In this document: piece by piece, positions 17,756 to 33,871 of the stretch
How positions within the stretch are numbered: the first letter of the stretch is position 1
Layout of the letters: every line of letters begins with the position of its first letter
Source of the DNA: SAR324 cluster bacterium
GTDB lineage: Bacteria > SAR324 > NAC60-12
Length of the DNA: 62,280 nt
Direction of reading: 5' to 3'
Assembly (NCBI GenBank): GCA_015232315.1
Contig: JADFZZ010000030.1
Span: 1 to 62,280 of the forward strand
The notes under the pieces: model-generated
Seen by the model: the letters and a program-made list of their open reading frames with translations, nothing else
Told to the model about the DNA's origin: nothing
Database searches by the model: none
Program-made: the position numbers and the translations under genes

Positions 17756-17798
17756 AAGTATCAGACCATAAATTTTAATCATTTTTGGTCGGGTACTT
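17756..17798. repeat. 43 bp palindrome resembling the ends of the MITE-like element
   Basis: An imperfect palindrome whose left arm reads AAGTATCAGACCA and right arm TGGTCGGGTACTT. The right end shares GGTCGGGTACTT with the inverse of the left terminus of the element at 27027-27279. I interpret it as an internally deleted derivative or solo end of that family. Confidence 0.5.
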
Positions 17799-25391: not shown

Positions 25392-25413
25392 CGGGTTTCA
25401 AACCCGTCTCTAC
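25392..25413. repeat. Partial GTAGAGACGGG palindrome overlapping a stop codon
   Basis: The sequence GGGTTTCAAACCCGTCTCTA, ending in a final C, repeats most of the element 30 bp to its left. On the minus strand its GTAGAG end supplies the TAG stop of the radical SAM gene (stop at 25410-25412). Confidence 0.8.
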
Positions 25414-26807
25414 ACCGGTTCAGGGGTTTTCTCAGGAATTTTCCAAAGAGTGACATCCTCATTCACATAGGACTTTCTGGATTTCAGATTGATGACCATG
25501 ATCCGCGCGCATTCTTTGATGCTTTGGGTGGTAGTCAGGGTGCTCAACGCTCTTTTCGCGATATTTTTGAGGGAATAAAAATCCATACCGATCTCTTTGA
25601 CGGCATGGAGAAATTCCAGGGTATCCATTTTTTTCAGATCATAATGCACACCCATGATGAAATGGTCAGTGATTTTCTGCCAGTCTTCCGGAAATTGTTT
25701 GAGATGCAGGCGCCCTTCCCGTTTCAACTGTTCAAATGTTTCGGTTCCGGGAAAAGGCTGAAGAATCTGGAGACGCAAAATATCAAAGCCCGCGATTTGA
25801 ACAAATTTTCTGGTTTCTTCCAGCACCCGCATGTCATCAGAATCGCTTCCCAGCAGGATCTCGCCCAGAACCATGATTTTACGTTTCTGGGCATTCGCAA
25901 TGAGTTCAGGATATTTATCCACACCAATCTTCAGATTCATCACCTTGTTCATGTCTTTGAGGGAATCAGGATTGATTGATTCAAAGCCGATCGACAACAG
26001 CCTGCACCCTGCGGCCGCGGCCAGATCGAGAGCTTCATCATCCTGCAGTGCATTCACCGAGGCGTAACAGGTGAACTGCTTGAAATTGAAACTGCCTTTC
26101 CTGCGTTCTTCGGCCATTCTCCGGCAGATTTCCTTGAACCGGGAAGCGTCACTTTTGGAATAGCCATACATGTTGCCATCCGTAATAAACAGGGTGTCAT
26201 AGCCTTTGGGAATCCGTTTCAGATCGGTGATCACTTCTTCCACATCCCGTTTCCGGTATTTGCCATCATAAAACTTGTTGATCGAGCAAAAATTGCAGTC
26301 AAAGGGACACCCGCGACTGGTTGAAAACGGCAAAAATGAATATCCGGGTTTGAACAGCTCATAACGCGGAAATCTGATGCCATCCAGAGAATGCATCCCG
26401 CTTTTGTGATTATAAACTTTTTGCAGACATTTGTTTTCAAAGTCCGTCAACATCTGCGCAATCACCTGTTCGCCATCACCGATACACACAGCGTCACAAA
26501 ATGGTTGGGCTTCGTCAGGGCACATCGACACATGCACTCCGCCAAGAAACACCGTCACCCCCCGTTTTCTGAATTCTGTGGCGACTTCATAGGCTCGGTT
26601 GATGGTCAACGTCGTGGTGGATAATCCGACCACATCCACCGCCATGTCGAAATCAATCGTTTCAATCTGCTCATCAACAATGGAGACATCCCAATGTTCC
26701 GGGACATAGGCGGCGAGATAGCCAAACCCCAGTGGAAAAATGGTCTTGATGTTCCGGTCCAGTTTCACGGCAGTGAATTTGGGTTGAATGAACACAATTT
26801 TAGGCAT
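25410..26807 (-). CDS. B12-binding-domain radical SAM protein
   Basis: A 465-residue radical S-adenosylmethionine enzyme. The N-terminal part (1-130) resembles a cobalamin-binding Rossmann domain (PLGFGYLAAYVPE, VGLSTTTLTINRA, VFLGGVHVSMCPDEA and IGDGEQ). No DxHxxG cobalamin ligand is visible. The radical SAM barrel carries the 4Fe-4S motif C167-x3-C171-x2-C174 (RGCPFDCNFC). The rest resembles the BchE/P-methylase-like class, whose substrates are varied. The ATG has GGGAGTG upstream. Its stop lies inside a palindromic repeat, suggesting the natural C-terminus was altered. Substrate unknown and no pathway neighbours help. Confidence 0.85.
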   Translation of the reverse strand: MPKIVFIQPKFTAVKLDRNIKTIFPLGFGYLAAYVPEHWDVSIVDEQIETIDFDMAVDVVGLSTTTLTINRAYEVATEFRKRGVTVFLGGVHVSMCPDEAQPFCDAVCIGDGEQVIAQMLTDFENKCLQKVYNHKSGMHSLDGIRFPRYELFKPGYSFLPFSTSRGCPFDCNFCSINKFYDGKYRKRDVEEVITDLKRIPKGYDTLFITDGNMYGYSKSDASRFKEICRRMAEERRKGSFNFKQFTCYASVNALQDDEALDLAAAAGCRLLSIGFESINPDSLKDMNKVMNLKIGVDKYPELIANAQKRKIMVLGEILLGSDSDDMRVLEETRKFVQIAGFDILRLQILQPFPGTETFEQLKREGRLHLKQFPEDWQKITDHFIMGVHYDLKKMDTLEFLHAVKEIGMDFYSLKNIAKRALSTLTTTQSIKECARIMVINLKSRKSYVNEDVTLWKIPEKTPEPV

Positions 26808-27026
26808 AAATCACTCCCTGAAATGTCGGCTGACACATGAATGAAACATCTTATCGTCCGGAAATACTCCAGCACAATCCTGATCTACCTCTGCTTGTAA
26901 CAATTTTTTACGTCCGTTGTCCAGAGTCATACTGCTTCCTGATAAAAATTGATCCGGGGAACCTTATTTGTTATGATCTCTGACTCGACATATCCTTTTT
27001 ATTTTTATAAGGCTAAGGCTAAGAAT
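26808..27026. other. Intergenic region upstream of two divergent genes
   Basis: Together with the element at 27027-27279 this makes a 529 bp gap between divergent genes. The first 219 bp are AT-rich and hold no gene that I can support. A promoter for the minus-strand radical SAM gene must lie here but I cannot place it. Confidence 0.5.
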
Positions 27027-27279
27027 AAGTACCCGACCATCAATCTTTAAACATTTTTTCTGGTTCCCTACCTCTGGTGCAAGGCTGTTAAGTTAAGAAA
27101 TTACCTGCGAGACAATCCCCCTTTTCAAAGGGGGCAGGGGGATTTAAAGATCAGAATAACATCCCCCTAACCCCCCTAAACCAAGGGGGAATTGGTGCAA
27201 GTGCCTTCACGGTGCTTAACAGCCTTGGCCGAGACGTCAGGAACCAGATTCATGTTAAAAAACTTTTGAGCGGGTACTT
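27027..27279. mobile_element. MITE-like element with about 65 bp terminal inverted repeats
   Basis: The left arm 27027-27092 starts AAGTACCCG and ends CAAGGCTGTTAAG. The right arm 27215-27279 is its imperfect inverse, starting CTTAACAGCCTTGG and ending CGGGTACTT. Shared blocks include CTGGTTCC and TTAAACA-like stretches. The centre holds the CCCCCTTTTCAAAGGGGG core also found at 22458-22538. It carries no coding frame and no clear target duplication was seen. Confidence 0.75.
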
Positions 27280-27294
27280 CCTTCGCCCTATAAT
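27266..27294 (+). promoter_or_regulatory. Sigma-70-type promoter partly supplied by the MITE-like element
   Basis: TTGAGC (27266-27271), a 17 bp spacer and a perfect TATAAT (27289-27294). Transcription would start near 27301, leaving a leader of about 36 bases before the ATG at 27337. The -35 box and half of the spacer lie inside the right terminal repeat of the element ending at 27279. Confidence 0.65.
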
Positions 27295-27336
27295 GATTAA
27301 TTCCGGCTACGTTTTTACCCTTGAATGTGAGGATGC

Positions 27337-30300
27337 ATGCCCCCGAAAACAACAGTCACCAAGGATCTGACTGAATCCATGGATTCCAGTCAACAGCAGA
27401 ATATTGAGACTTCAGAGTTTGAGAGAGAGGAACAGGTTGTTGTTGGCATCGGCGCCTCAGCAGGAGGTCTGGAAGCCTTGCAGCGTTTGCTGGCAACACT
27501 GCCGGATCAACTCAATCTTGCCATTATCATCGCTCATCATCTGGATCCTCATCATCAAACAATTCTAGGGAGCCTGCTGGCACGTTGCACAGAAATTCCG
27601 ATTGTGGACGCTGAACACAATGCGCCCATTGAAATGAATCATATTTATGTGACGCCACCCAACAAAGACATCATCATTGCCAACAATACCATCCAGTTAT
27701 TGGAACCAGTCACGACCACAGGCTCCAAGCCCTCCATTGATATTTTTTTCACTTCGCTCTCACGTGAAAAAGGCAAATATTCCGTGGGTATTATTTTGTC
27801 CGGAGCAGGCTCTGACGGTGCGTTTGGTGTTAGAGCCATCAAAGCCGCGGAAGGCGTGGTGATTGTACAGGATGAACTCTCCGCAAAACACGATGGTATG
27901 CCACGTTCCGCAATTCAAACCGGCTGTGCAGATCTGGTGCTGGAGCCTGACCAGATTTGGTCTGAACTGTTGAGACTGCTCCATGCCAGAGAATCAGCCC
28001 GGACGCATCAGGACAATATCGACAACCTGAACCAACTGCTTCACAAAATATTTCTACTGATCCTGGAACACACCGGGCATGATTTTTCAGGATATCGTGA
28101 AAGCACCATATTCCGCCGGATTGACAGAAGAATGCTGGCCACTAAAAGCGCCAGTCTGGAGAAATATATTGAATATCTGGAACAGCATCCCGCTGAAATC
28201 CGAATGTTGTTCAATGAGTTTCTCATCCATGTGACATCCTTCTTCAGAGATCCTGAAGTGTTTGAGGAACTGGAAATTGCCATCCGTAAGATCATTGCCG
28301 CCAAAACCGGCAACGAGCCCATTCGTGTATGGGTTCCGGGATGTTCCACAGGCGAAGAGCCCTACACCATTGCCTTGCTGTTTGCCAAACATCTGCAACA
28401 CAGGATCTATGATATGGATATCAAAATTTTTGCCACTGATCTCAACGAAAGCGCGATCGCTGTTGCCAGAAAAGGTTTGTATTCAGTGAGTTCCATTGAA
28501 AATGTCCCGGCGTCGTTGCGCGAACGTTTTTTTTCTGAAGGCGCCAATACCTATCAGATCCTGAAACAAATCCGGAACATTGTTGTGTGTTCCCTGCACA
28601 ATATTCTCAAAGACCCCCCTTATCTCAAACTGGATCTGATCAGTTGCCGCAACATGCTGATTTACATCAAACCTGAAAAACAGAATGAAATTTTCTCACT
28701 GTTTCATTATGCCCTCAATCCTGACGGCTATTTATTGTTGGGAAAATCTGAATCAGCCACACAATCCGCGGAGTTGTTCACGATCATTGACAGTAAAAAG
28801 AAGCTGTATCAACGCAATCTCGCCTTCAGTTCAGAAGCTCTTTTTTCCAGAGCCAACAGTCAAAACCTGCGCATCGCATCCCGGAAAAAGCCGGAATCCA
28901 CAGGCACTCTGTCACCTGTGACGCTGGTGCAAAAATACCTTCTGGAACATTATGTGCCCTGTTCTGTGCTCATCAATCAAACCGGTGATATTCTATTCAT
29001 ACAGGGGAATATTGTTCCCTGGTTTGGAACAGTTTCCGGAAAGCTGGAAACTAATCTGTTCAAGCTGTTGCAACCGGAATTGAGAGTTGAACTCCGGATT
29101 CTGTTGAAAAAAGCCATGGAACAGCACGTACCACTAAAAAGCCATAAAATCCCGTTGGGTTCGCCGCCGACAAACCGTGCGATGACGCTCACCATCCTTC
29201 CTGTCCTGGAACAAGCGCAATACAAGGACTGTTACATTGTCTGTCTGCAAGAGCTGGCTATTGCCCCGCAACAGTCCGATGACGCGCCTCCCGATAGGGA
29301 AATCCAGAATCGTGTGACCGAGCTTGAACAAGATCTCGCGACCACACGGGAACACCTGCAATCCATGATGGAAGAACTGGAATCTTATAATGAGGAACTT
29401 CAGTCGGCCAACGAAGAACTGCAATCCACCAATGAAGAACTGCAATCGACAAATGAAGAACTGGAAGTCTCCGGTGAGGAACTGCAATCGACGAATGAAG
29501 AACTGCTGACAGTCAACGACGAATTGAATGACCGGACCATGGAACTGAATCATTCCAATGCGGATCTGCTCAACATTTTGAACAACAGCGCGCCCTTGAT
29601 GGTCCTGGATAGCCACCTGAAAATCACACGGATGACACAGTCCATGAGCACGGTTCCCGGAATGGACCCGGATCATATCGGCATGACAGTGACCTCTCTT
29701 TTGTTTCCCACCGAACTGAGGCCTCTACACGCCTGGTGTCAGGAGGTCCTTGAGAGCAATGTCAGCTTATCCCGGGATGTTCAGGTGAATGATAATTTTT
29801 TTCAAATCCGGATTTTGCCTTATTGTGATGAAAATGAGGTCACTACCGGAGTGATTCTGGTGTTCATTGATCTCACTGATTATAAAAACATGGAAGTGGC
29901 GTTGAGAGAGGCCAAAGAAAAAGCGGAATCTGCCAATAACGCAAAAAATAATTTTATTGCGAGCATCAACCATGAAGTACGGGTTCCGCTCAATACCATC
30001 ATTGGTATGTCTGAACTGCTGCAAACAACCGAACTGAGCGATACCCAGCGAAGCCATGTGGAAATCATCAACAGTGCCAGCAGTACTCTGATTGAAATGA
30101 TTTGGGATATTCTTGCTCTGGCTGATGCGGACAAAGAAAAAATAGCGCTGGAACAGGTTGATTTCAATCTGAAAGATCTCCTGGAACGCAACATGAAAAT
30201 TCTGGCGTTGCGCGCTCAACAGGCCGGGTTGTCTTTTGATTATTCCATAGCGCCGGATGTACCGGTCAATCTCCTCGGCGACCCCTTCAATTTAAGACGC

Positions 30301-31464
30301 ATTCTCTACAAACTCATTGGCAACGCCATTCAGTTCACCCCGTCAGGACGCATTACCCTTCGAGTTCAAAATGAATCTAAACCCGGAGATCATCAATGTC
30401 ATTTGCGTTTTTCCATTCAGGATACAGGAATTGGAATTGACCGGGAGCAGCTTGAAACAATTTTCGATAGAGTCACCCGGGAGGATCGTTCCATGACCGG
30501 GGACTTTGGCGGAACCGGGACAGGATTGGCCCTTTGTAAAAGTCTGGCAGAACTGGCAAAGGGCAGCATTGCTGTCCAAAGCGAAGTTGGCAAAGGCAGT
30601 GTCTTTCATTTGATGATGCCCTTTGCTCTGAGTGAGTTAAATGCTATGACGGTTCTCACGGAGGATTCTGACTTTTCAGAAGAACGGATACATACAGAAA
30701 ATGATGCGGATGAAAATCTGAACATAACTCAGAAACTTCCACCTTTACGGATTTTACTTGTGGAAGATATAAAAGACAATCAGACCATATTCACACACCA
30801 TCTCATCCAATGGGGGGCAACGGTGGATGTGGCATGCAACGGACTGGAGGGAATCGCGCTGTTTCAGAAAAATGAGTATGACCTGGTTCTGATGGACATT
30901 CGCATGCCTGTTATGAATGGCTATGATGCCACCAGAATGATTCGTGAAATTCAACAGAAAAAACGCTCAACACCAACACCGATCCTGGCACTCACGGTAA
31001 ATTCCGTTCAGGAAGAGTTACAACTTGCCATTGATGCGGGATGCGACGGAGTCATCACCAAACCACTCAAAAAGGACACCTTGTTCCGTAAAGTTCTTGA
31101 AGTAATCCATAACACCTCTGACCCGTCTCACACTGAGGCCAATGAATCCCTGGTGGCCTCAACGCGCCCCCCCCGACTTCGGATCACCCTGGGATCCGAT
31201 TTCCGGGAGGTGATGCCTCAGGTCAGGGATTTTCAGCGCAAGCAAATCCAGTTGGCCGTCACAGCCCTTGAGCAACAGGATTTTGAGCAACTGCGAATGA
31301 TCGCGCATAAAATCAAAGGTATGATGACACATCCCCGAATCAATGAACTGGGAGCACATCTGGAACAGATCGCTAAAAATCAGGAGTCCCGGGATTGTAG
31401 AAAAATCCTCGGAGAGATTAAAAAACTCCATGACCTGCTTGAAATTGATTATGAACAACCCTAA
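27337..31464 (+). CDS. CheB-CheR fused hybrid histidine kinase
   Basis: A 1375-residue soluble protein. In order: CheB methylesterase domain (about 35-220; GASAGG serine, IAHHLDP histidine, GAGSDG aspartate); CheR methyltransferase (about 245-490; VPGCSTGEEPYTIAL); PAS-like region; a coiled coil built of NEELQS repeats (about 655-735); PAS; HisKA with H879 (SINHEVRVPLN); HATPase (about 980-1095); a receiver with D1187 (VLMDIRMPVMNGYDA); and a C-terminal Hpt with H1324 (AHKIKG). The order gives a complete His-Asp-His relay inside one chain, ending on an Hpt that can pass phosphate onward. The ATG has GTGAGGA upstream. It is followed after 16 bp by another hybrid kinase. Confidence 0.94.
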   Translation: MPPKTTVTKDLTESMDSSQQQNIETSEFEREEQVVVGIGASAGGLEALQRLLATLPDQLNLAIIIAHHLDPHHQTILGSLLARCTEIPIVDAEHNAPIEMNHIYVTPPNKDIIIANNTIQLLEPVTTTGSKPSIDIFFTSLSREKGKYSVGIILSGAGSDGAFGVRAIKAAEGVVIVQDELSAKHDGMPRSAIQTGCADLVLEPDQIWSELLRLLHARESARTHQDNIDNLNQLLHKIFLLILEHTGHDFSGYRESTIFRRIDRRMLATKSASLEKYIEYLEQHPAEIRMLFNEFLIHVTSFFRDPEVFEELEIAIRKIIAAKTGNEPIRVWVPGCSTGEEPYTIALLFAKHLQHRIYDMDIKIFATDLNESAIAVARKGLYSVSSIENVPASLRERFFSEGANTYQILKQIRNIVVCSLHNILKDPPYLKLDLISCRNMLIYIKPEKQNEIFSLFHYALNPDGYLLLGKSESATQSAELFTIIDSKKKLYQRNLAFSSEALFSRANSQNLRIASRKKPESTGTLSPVTLVQKYLLEHYVPCSVLINQTGDILFIQGNIVPWFGTVSGKLETNLFKLLQPELRVELRILLKKAMEQHVPLKSHKIPLGSPPTNRAMTLTILPVLEQAQYKDCYIVCLQELAIAPQQSDDAPPDREIQNRVTELEQDLATTREHLQSMMEELESYNEELQSANEELQSTNEELQSTNEELEVSGEELQSTNEELLTVNDELNDRTMELNHSNADLLNILNNSAPLMVLDSHLKITRMTQSMSTVPGMDPDHIGMTVTSLLFPTELRPLHAWCQEVLESNVSLSRDVQVNDNFFQIRILPYCDENEVTTGVILVFIDLTDYKNMEVALREAKEKAESANNAKNNFIASINHEVRVPLNTIIGMSELLQTTELSDTQRSHVEIINSASSTLIEMIWDILALADADKEKIALEQVDFNLKDLLERNMKILALRAQQAGLSFDYSIAPDVPVNLLGDPFNLRRILYKLIGNAIQFTPSGRITLRVQNESKPGDHQCHLRFSIQDTGIGIDREQLETIFDRVTREDRSMTGDFGGTGTGLALCKSLAELAKGSIAVQSEVGKGSVFHLMMPFALSELNAMTVLTEDSDFSEERIHTENDADENLNITQKLPPLRILLVEDIKDNQTIFTHHLIQWGATVDVACNGLEGIALFQKNEYDLVLMDIRMPVMNGYDATRMIREIQQKKRSTPTPILALTVNSVQEELQLAIDAGCDGVITKPLKKDTLFRKVLEVIHNTSDPSHTEANESLVASTRPPRLRITLGSDFREVMPQVRDFQRKQIQLAVTALEQQDFEQLRMIAHKIKGMMTHPRINELGAHLEQIAKNQESRDCRKILGEIKKLHDLLEIDYEQP

Positions 31465-31480: not shown

Positions 31481-33871
31481 ATGACACGAATTCGTGATCA
31501 ATTCTCTGGAAAATCAAATTTTCAAACACGATTTATCGATATTATTCACAATCCGGCCGCCGCATGGGTCATCCTGTGCGTGTCTCTGAGTTTAACGGTT
31601 GTTGCCTATTTTTTATCCGTCTCGTTTGTACAACAACGACGCTCTGACCAGTTTTATTTCCGCTCCCTTGAGATTGAAATCGCCATTAAGGAGCGTCTCG
31701 ATATCTATGAACAGGTTCTCTGGGGGGGCGTGGCCTTTCTATCACAAACCGAAAAGCCCACCCGGAAACGCTGGAAAAACTATGTGGAACAACTGAACCT
31801 CATCAATCAATGGCCTGGAATTCAGGGAATCGGTTTCAGCATTCCAGTCTTGCCCGCAGACAAAGAGTCCCATGTCACCGCCATCCGGGCTGAAGGATTC
31901 CCTGAGTATGACATCAAACCCACCGGAACCCGTGAACTGTATTCCGCCATCATCTGGCTGGAACCGTTTGACTGGCGCAATCAACGAGCCTTTGGCTATG
32001 ACATGTGGTCCAATGACATCCGGCAAAAAGCCATGAGGCGCGCCAGAGATCAGGGCGTGGCCGCGACTTCCGGAATGATTTTGCTGGTTCAGGAAACAGA
32101 AAAGGACATCCAGAAAGGTTTTTTGATCTACACCCCCCTGTATGACCAACCCGCCCGGACATTGTCGTCACCGGAAGACCGCAGAGCACATTTTGTCGGT
32201 TGGGTTTACGCGCCCTTTCGCATGGGCGACCTCATGAAGGGGATACTTGGCAGCGAAGACACCAGCATAGAGTTTGAAATTTATGACGGGGAACAAATGA
32301 CTTATGAAAACCTGTTATACAGTTCCTCGGGGCGTTCTCATCCAGAGTCTTCACAGACACCCGTTTTAAACAGGACTGAGACGATCACCCGTCAGGGACA
32401 TCCATGGACTTTATATTTCAAAACACCTGATGATTTCACCTTCAAAAGCGATTATAACCAGCCCCGATTTGTGGTCATCGCCGGAACATTGATTGACCTG
32501 TTGCTGTTTTATGTGGTTTATTCCCTGTATTTCGTCAATCGAAAAGCAGAAAATATTGCCCGAGCAATGACAAGGGAACTTGAACTCACAAAACAAGGCC
32601 TGGAAGAAACCGTAAAAACTCGAACAGGCGATCTGCTACAGGCCAGAGACGATCTGATCCGGCAAAACAAAGTTCTGCTTCATACCAGGGAACTGGCAGA
32701 AGCCGCCAACAAAGCCAAAAGTGAGTTCCTGTCGGTCATGAGTCATGAAATCCGCACCCCGCTGAATGCCATTCTGGGTATGACAGAATTATTGGACGAG
32801 ACCCCCCTGACAACCGTTCAACAGGAATACGCCTCGTCCATCATGCGAAGTGGCGAAACACTGCTTGAACTGGTCAATCATGTCCTTGATTTGTCACGGA
32901 TCGAAGTCAACCGGATGGAACTGGAAATCATCCCGTTTGATCTGCATGAGTTGATCCGTAAACATGAAACCATGTTACGGTTGTCCTCACAGAAAAAAAA
33001 TCTGGAGTTGATTTATCATCTGGCTCCCGGGGTTCCCGCCAGCCTGCGGGGAGATCCAGCCCGACTGAGGCAGATCCTGACCAATCTTGTGGGCAATGCC
33101 ATCAAATTTACAGAACAGGGATCCGTGACCCTCCAGATCGAGCAGGTGCAACAGACTGAATCTCCACCCGGAGAGGTGCTTTTGCGCTTTTCTGTGCAGG
33201 ATACCGGCATTGGAATTCCCGACCATCGACTGTCATCCATTTTTGACAGTTTCACCCAGGTGGATTCTTCGACAACCAGAAAATATGGAGGCAGTGGCCT
33301 GGGATTGACCATTTGTAAAAAACTGGTTGAGCTGATGGGTGGTCAGATCCATGTGGAAAGCAAAGAAGGGAAGGGAAGTCGATTTTACTTTGAAATTCCA
33401 TTAAGCATCGCCCCTCCGGACAATTCCAAAAAAATCGAAAAACCGGTTGCAACGCCCCAACTGGAGCCTAGGGCCGAAACAAAACCCCTTAGAATATTGC
33501 TGGCTGAAGATTCGTTTGACAACCAGTTGATTATCAAAAAACTTCTTCAAAAACTCCAGACCTCGGTTGTGCTGGCCGAAGATGGAAAACAGGCACTGGA
33601 GCATTTCCAGAAAGAAGACTTTGATCTTGTGCTGATGGACATGCAAATGCCGGTCATGGATGGTTACACCGCCACCCGTCTCATTCGTCAATGGGAACAG
33701 GAACACCACCGGACTCCGATCAGGATTATCGCGTTGACGGCGCTTTCGTTCAAGGAACAACTGGAAAAGACAACGGAAGCAGGTTGTGATGGCTATCTGA
33801 TCAAACCCTTCACCCAGAAACAGTTTGAACAAAAGATCCTGGAATCGCAGAGAACTCCAGAGGCGGTCTAA
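31481..33871 (+). CDS. CHASE-domain hybrid histidine kinase
   Basis: A 796-residue membrane kinase. Two membrane segments (about 25-50 and 325-345) enclose a periplasmic CHASE domain (about 65-285; [23 protein letters not shown] and [10 protein letters not shown]). CHASE domains bind small ligands such as peptides or cytokinin-like compounds; the ligand here is unknown. A coiled coil leads to HisKA with H422 ([15 protein letters not shown]), HATPase ([13 protein letters not shown]) and a C-terminal receiver with D720 ([16 protein letters not shown]). There is no Hpt, so the receiver needs a separate Hpt, possibly that of the upstream hybrid kinase (gap 16 bp, same strand). Confidence 0.94.

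Follow-up and report, generated by a model that had tools for sequence, protein, structure and literature searches.

A possible fusion promoter at the junction of a MITE-like element and its flanking DNA, upstream of a hybrid kinase gene in a SAR324 cluster bacterium

In the window analysed here, a 62,280-nt stretch of contig JADFZZ010000030.1 from a SAR324 cluster bacterium, the right end of a MITE-like element and the DNA beside it together form a promoter-like site before a CheB-CheR hybrid kinase gene (Table 1). Our preferred reading, held tentatively and at a little less than even chances, is that the kinase may be transcribed from a fusion promoter at this junction, which would be an accident of one copy rather than a property of the element family. 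Both transcription from the junction and its importance for the kinase are what we infer from the DNA. The second hybrid kinase gene follows closely and is likely carried on the same transcript. The positions and distances that the initial annotation had given for the element, the TTGAGC and TATAAT hexamers and the kinase start codon all agree with the sequence.

Table 1. Features of the window around the element and the kinase genes (domain assignments from Pfam).
Feature	Position	Strand	Remarks
B12-binding/radical SAM gene	25410..26807	-	Divergent; across the intergenic region from the kinase genes; Pfam
Upstream promoter-like site	26949-26977	+	TTGATC-17-TATGAT, extended -10 type (TG precedes the -10); upstream of the element, a candidate for the native promoter
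MITE-like element copy, nested form	27027..27279	+	253 bp; AAGTACCCG...CGGGTACTT; predicted to fold as one long hairpin if transcribed
Left-type end	27027..27050	-	Outward ...GGTCGGGTACTT; family hexamer slot ATGGTC (15/27), not TTGA
Inner hairpin element	27079..27233	+	CAAGGCTGTTAAG...CTTAACAGCCTTG; CCCCC/GGGGG stem; boundaries approximate
Right-type end	27256..27279	+	Family consensus ...AAAAAACTTTTGATCGGGTACTT then A; window copy has TTGAGC and is without the A
-35-like hexamer TTGAGC	27266-27271	+	4/6 match to TTGACA; inside the right end of the element
-10-like hexamer TATAAT	27289-27294	+	Perfect; in flanking DNA; 17-bp spacer from TTGAGC
Hybrid kinase CheB-CheR-PAS-HisKA-HATPase-receiver	27337..31464	+	1375 aa; Pfam
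Hybrid kinase CHASE-HisKA-HATPase-receiver	31481..33871	+	796 aa; Pfam; 16 bp after the first kinase

The 253-bp element is a genuine member of a non-autonomous, multi-copy MITE-like family, being short, bounded by terminal inverted repeats, devoid of a gene and present in many dispersed copies. Its arms are imperfect inverted repeats (complementary at 75% over 28 nt and at 82% over 34 nt), no ORF of at least 80 aa lies inside it, and it matches 80 stretches in the genome that it comes from (G000; 88 contigs, 5.25 Mb in total), some of these matches being paired arms or opposite strands of a single copy. Among the paired elements examined (n = 16, 42–351 bp), T precedes 13 and A follows 15, with both present in 12. 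This T/A flanking, together with the A that follows 50 of the 53 element ends compared below, is consistent with either TA duplication or a longer repeat, while the window copy has T before it and C after it; no empty site was seen in the test for a target-site duplication. The exact right-end 17-mer TTTTGATCGGGTACTTA occurs 18 times in the genome, 0 times in reversed form and 0 times in the other 40 genomes of the order, and by this right end the family was found only in its own genome among the 41 genomes of the order searched. With the whole element as query, one of 20 other relatives searched (G010) has matches, which are to the core. A search for an autonomous partner with PF13358, which covers one transposase family, gave two partial matches, neither at a locus with element-type ends (up to three mismatches), and an Rfam scan of 26500-27700 returned two weak matches, both below the gathering scores and treated as chance. 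No paper on SAR324 with miniature inverted-repeat elements was found in the open-licence library searched.

The junction site TTGAGC-17-TATAAT matches the promoter consensus at 10 of 12 positions. Its TATAAT lies wholly in the flank, 9 bp outside the right end of the element, and the kinase ATG stands 43 positions past the last base of that hexamer (42 bases between); the -10 is without a preceding TG and the -35 reaches only 4/6. When the element is removed and the flanks are joined, with or without the usual A, the best -35 slot at spacers of 15–19 from TATAAT matches 2/6 as against 4/6 now, so the -35-like box comes from the element, on the assumption of the present flank, which may have changed since insertion. 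The earlier proposal that the element donates this box is thereby borne out, the box being element DNA, the -10 being flank DNA, the spacing falling within 16–18 bp and the joined flanks holding no -35-like hexamer, which is the composition of a fusion promoter. In the mechanism that we propose, the element inserted between the divergent gene for the radical SAM protein and the two kinase genes. Its right end has an outward TTGANC, with a TATAAT in the flank at the ideal distance of 17 bp, so that the junction could be recognised as a fusion promoter by RNA polymerase with the housekeeping sigma factor, which would give the kinase transcript a leader of ~35 nt.

The initial annotation had further suggested that the family might carry a portable half promoter in its repeat end, and this did not hold when the ends were counted. 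The loci used contain 78 distinct CGGGTACTT contexts (at most one mismatch), of which 25 unlike either end type were dropped, which left 53 ends, with identical 40-base contexts counted once and the loci of other genomes left out. A -10 in register (spacer 16–18 bp, total match of at least 9, A2 and T6 required) is present at 1 of the 53, which is the window end itself, while 0.29 are expected with random genomic flanks and 0.52 with shuffled flanks; the check for other ends near TATAAT proposed with the initial annotation thus returned none beyond the starting case. Family-wide promoter donation was rejected, since one end in 53 is as chance allows. A looser test, with at least 4/6 in the -10 slot, also gave no excess at right-type ends (4/26 vs 4.7 in shuffled flanks) or at left-type ends (2/27 vs 4.3). 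Exact TATAAT follows 1/26 right-type ends, with 0.05 expected (P 0.052), and this one case is the case that was selected for having TATAAT and therefore is not independent evidence. A latent -35-like hexamer is thus present in the family, yet that it makes promoters in its own genome visibly beyond chance is not supported.

The -35 slot of the right-type ends reads TTGATC in 21 of 26, TTGATG in one and TTGAGC in the window copy and no other. As the family hexamer is TTGATC, TTGAGC is private to the window copy, and, because both hexamers match TTGACA at 4/6, the private change is no improvement by count. The window end is one of the three among 53 without a following A, and if the usual A was lost there, the spacer went from 18 to 17 bp. 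It is quite improbable, in our judgement, that the right-type end is a latent -35 spread genome-wide by the family, which at the kinase would have been tuned after insertion through loss of the flanking A and the shortening of the spacer from 18 to 17 bp, the promoter then arising by transposition plus a one-base change. The two other ends that are also without the usual flanking A are those of L085 and L053.

Chance resemblance has to be weighed against the fusion promoter, and so does a second candidate site. When both strands were scanned, the junction site is one of the two best in 20 kb, and seven 10/12 sites occur in the whole window. In the non-coding DNA (the 6,980 bases outside 33 ORFs picked as the main genes of the window), 3 sites reach at least 10/12 and 19 reach at least 9/12, against 2.2 ± 1.4 and 14.3 ± 4.0 in mono-nucleotide shuffles, and sites of such quality are therefore not enriched there. 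This nearness to the shuffled expectation, as well as the lack of an excess of -10 boxes at the ends of the family, agrees with the view that the kinase is driven from another start, through another sigma factor or from a site missed by the consensus scan, with neither candidate site in use. We hold that view to be somewhat unlikely, as the perfect TATAAT, the optimal spacing and the right distance and strand weigh against it, and, by our own arithmetic from the non-coding density, any single gene would be expected to have ~0.01 10/12 sites in its upstream 85 bp. About 33 main genes were, however, open to the same coincidence, and the position and spacing of the junction site are accordingly suggestive, not conclusive.

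The second candidate, the extended -10 type site upstream of the element, could be an older promoter of the kinase, since it stands 360 bp before the kinase ATG and would stand ~105 bp before it if the element were removed. The element would then have fallen between a native promoter and its gene and would now lie in a long hairpin-forming leader, and the TATAAT at the junction would be incidental. The site matches the consensus at 9/12 and has a TG preceding its -10, the only terminator-like site listed on the way to the gene is on the reverse strand, and the element RNA is predicted to fold to -110.9 kcal/mol (z -9.2), all of which would suit such a leader arrangement. There is also a precedent in Neisseria meningitidis, where, according to PMC2649163, a Correia element lies between the native promoter and mtrCDE; the same paper reports, as the other of two situations, an element end that supplies the promoter. 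That the upstream site is the native promoter is nevertheless unlikely in our estimation, because its consensus count is weaker than that of the junction site, and sites at 9/12 are common, as the count of 19 against 14.3 in the non-coding DNA indicates.

The relatives found for the kinase locus are distant, none being a close relative without the element, and the comparison with them was uninformative. None of the relatives searched was listed under the same genus, and when 31 genomes of the family were searched for the kinase, only one relative covering nearly the whole protein was found, at 44% identity (G005). That genome has no match to the element, and its kinase gene has a different upstream gene and upstream DNA unlike that of the window, as judged by eye. 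The upstream neighbour looks from its sequence like a LysR-type gene. In genome contigs, a first scan for the kinase found none and a second found four loci, none close, the best being 43% identical in a SAR324-cluster MAG; from the matching position and strand, this locus is probably the same record as G005.

A fusion promoter at the kinase would resemble systems known elsewhere. Like the 'Black promoter' of Correia elements (CREE/NEMIS), it involves a short non-coding repeat with inverted ends and many copies in one genome, and in both the -35 lies in the end nearest the gene and the -10 is completed by, or lies in, the flanking DNA. In Neisseria, working promoters take their -35 and a portion of their -10 from a Correia element (PMC2649163), and the T/A flanks of the present family are reminiscent of the TA duplication that PMC9330008 reports for CREE. 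There are also differences: CREE ends are CCGGTACGG or TCAGGACAA whereas those of the present family are AAGTACCC/GGGTACTT, and CREE ends hold part of the -10, whereas at the kinase the -10 lies entirely in the flank, only 1/53 ends has it and the promoter is a predicted one. Identity with a Correia element was considered and rejected, as the CREE end sequences differ and the host is not neisserial, the nearest kinase relative being in a SAR324-cluster MAG. The junction is also like the fusion (hybrid) promoters of IS911, IS2, IS21, IS30 and IS256, in which an outward -35 in one terminal repeat is combined with a flanking -10 (PMC9330008). In several such IS, however, the -35 serves the IRR-IRL junction promoter of the transposase, and no such role or autonomous partner was found for the present family.

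Fusion promoters made by transposable elements are a recognised way of switching on neighbour genes, and it is plausible that the kinase locus is a further instance, here a single predicted case. Should the junction be in use, a small repeat would have rewired a pair of chemotaxis-type hybrid kinases in an uncultured SAR324-like lineage, as with the Correia elements in Neisseria, and MITEs would then alter signalling genes also outside well-studied pathogens. So far the kinase junction is a lone candidate, and the count across the family speaks against a general role in donating promoters.

The window copy is of a nested form. Its inner part belongs to a second MITE-like hairpin family, CAAGGCTGTTAAG...AACAGACGTG, of ~154 bp (the window copy, L083, L013, L006, L009 and L016), while the plain form of the outer element seems to be ~184–187 bp long (L050, L055, L067 and L069). 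Elsewhere the inner element occurs both by itself, flanked by 11-bp direct repeats, and within outer elements at differing points; by the rule used, a direct repeat is present at 25/36 inner-element rows, in which most copies are counted twice, once per strand. Many of the target 11-mers appear, by eye, to have CCC or CCT before them and GGG or AGG after them, hinting at a preferred target of the inner element. In three outer elements (the window copy, G000:C50:4000-4257 and G000:C20:74751-74997), the inner element lies between two different 11-mers, which would fit a recombination event between a pair of inner copies in which the outer core was deleted. Moreover, a 43-bp pair of outer-family ends nearly without core (AAGTATCAG...CGGGTACTT) lies between two genes at 17756-17798 of the window, and similar mini-forms of 42–55 bp of the outer family occur elsewhere in the genome.
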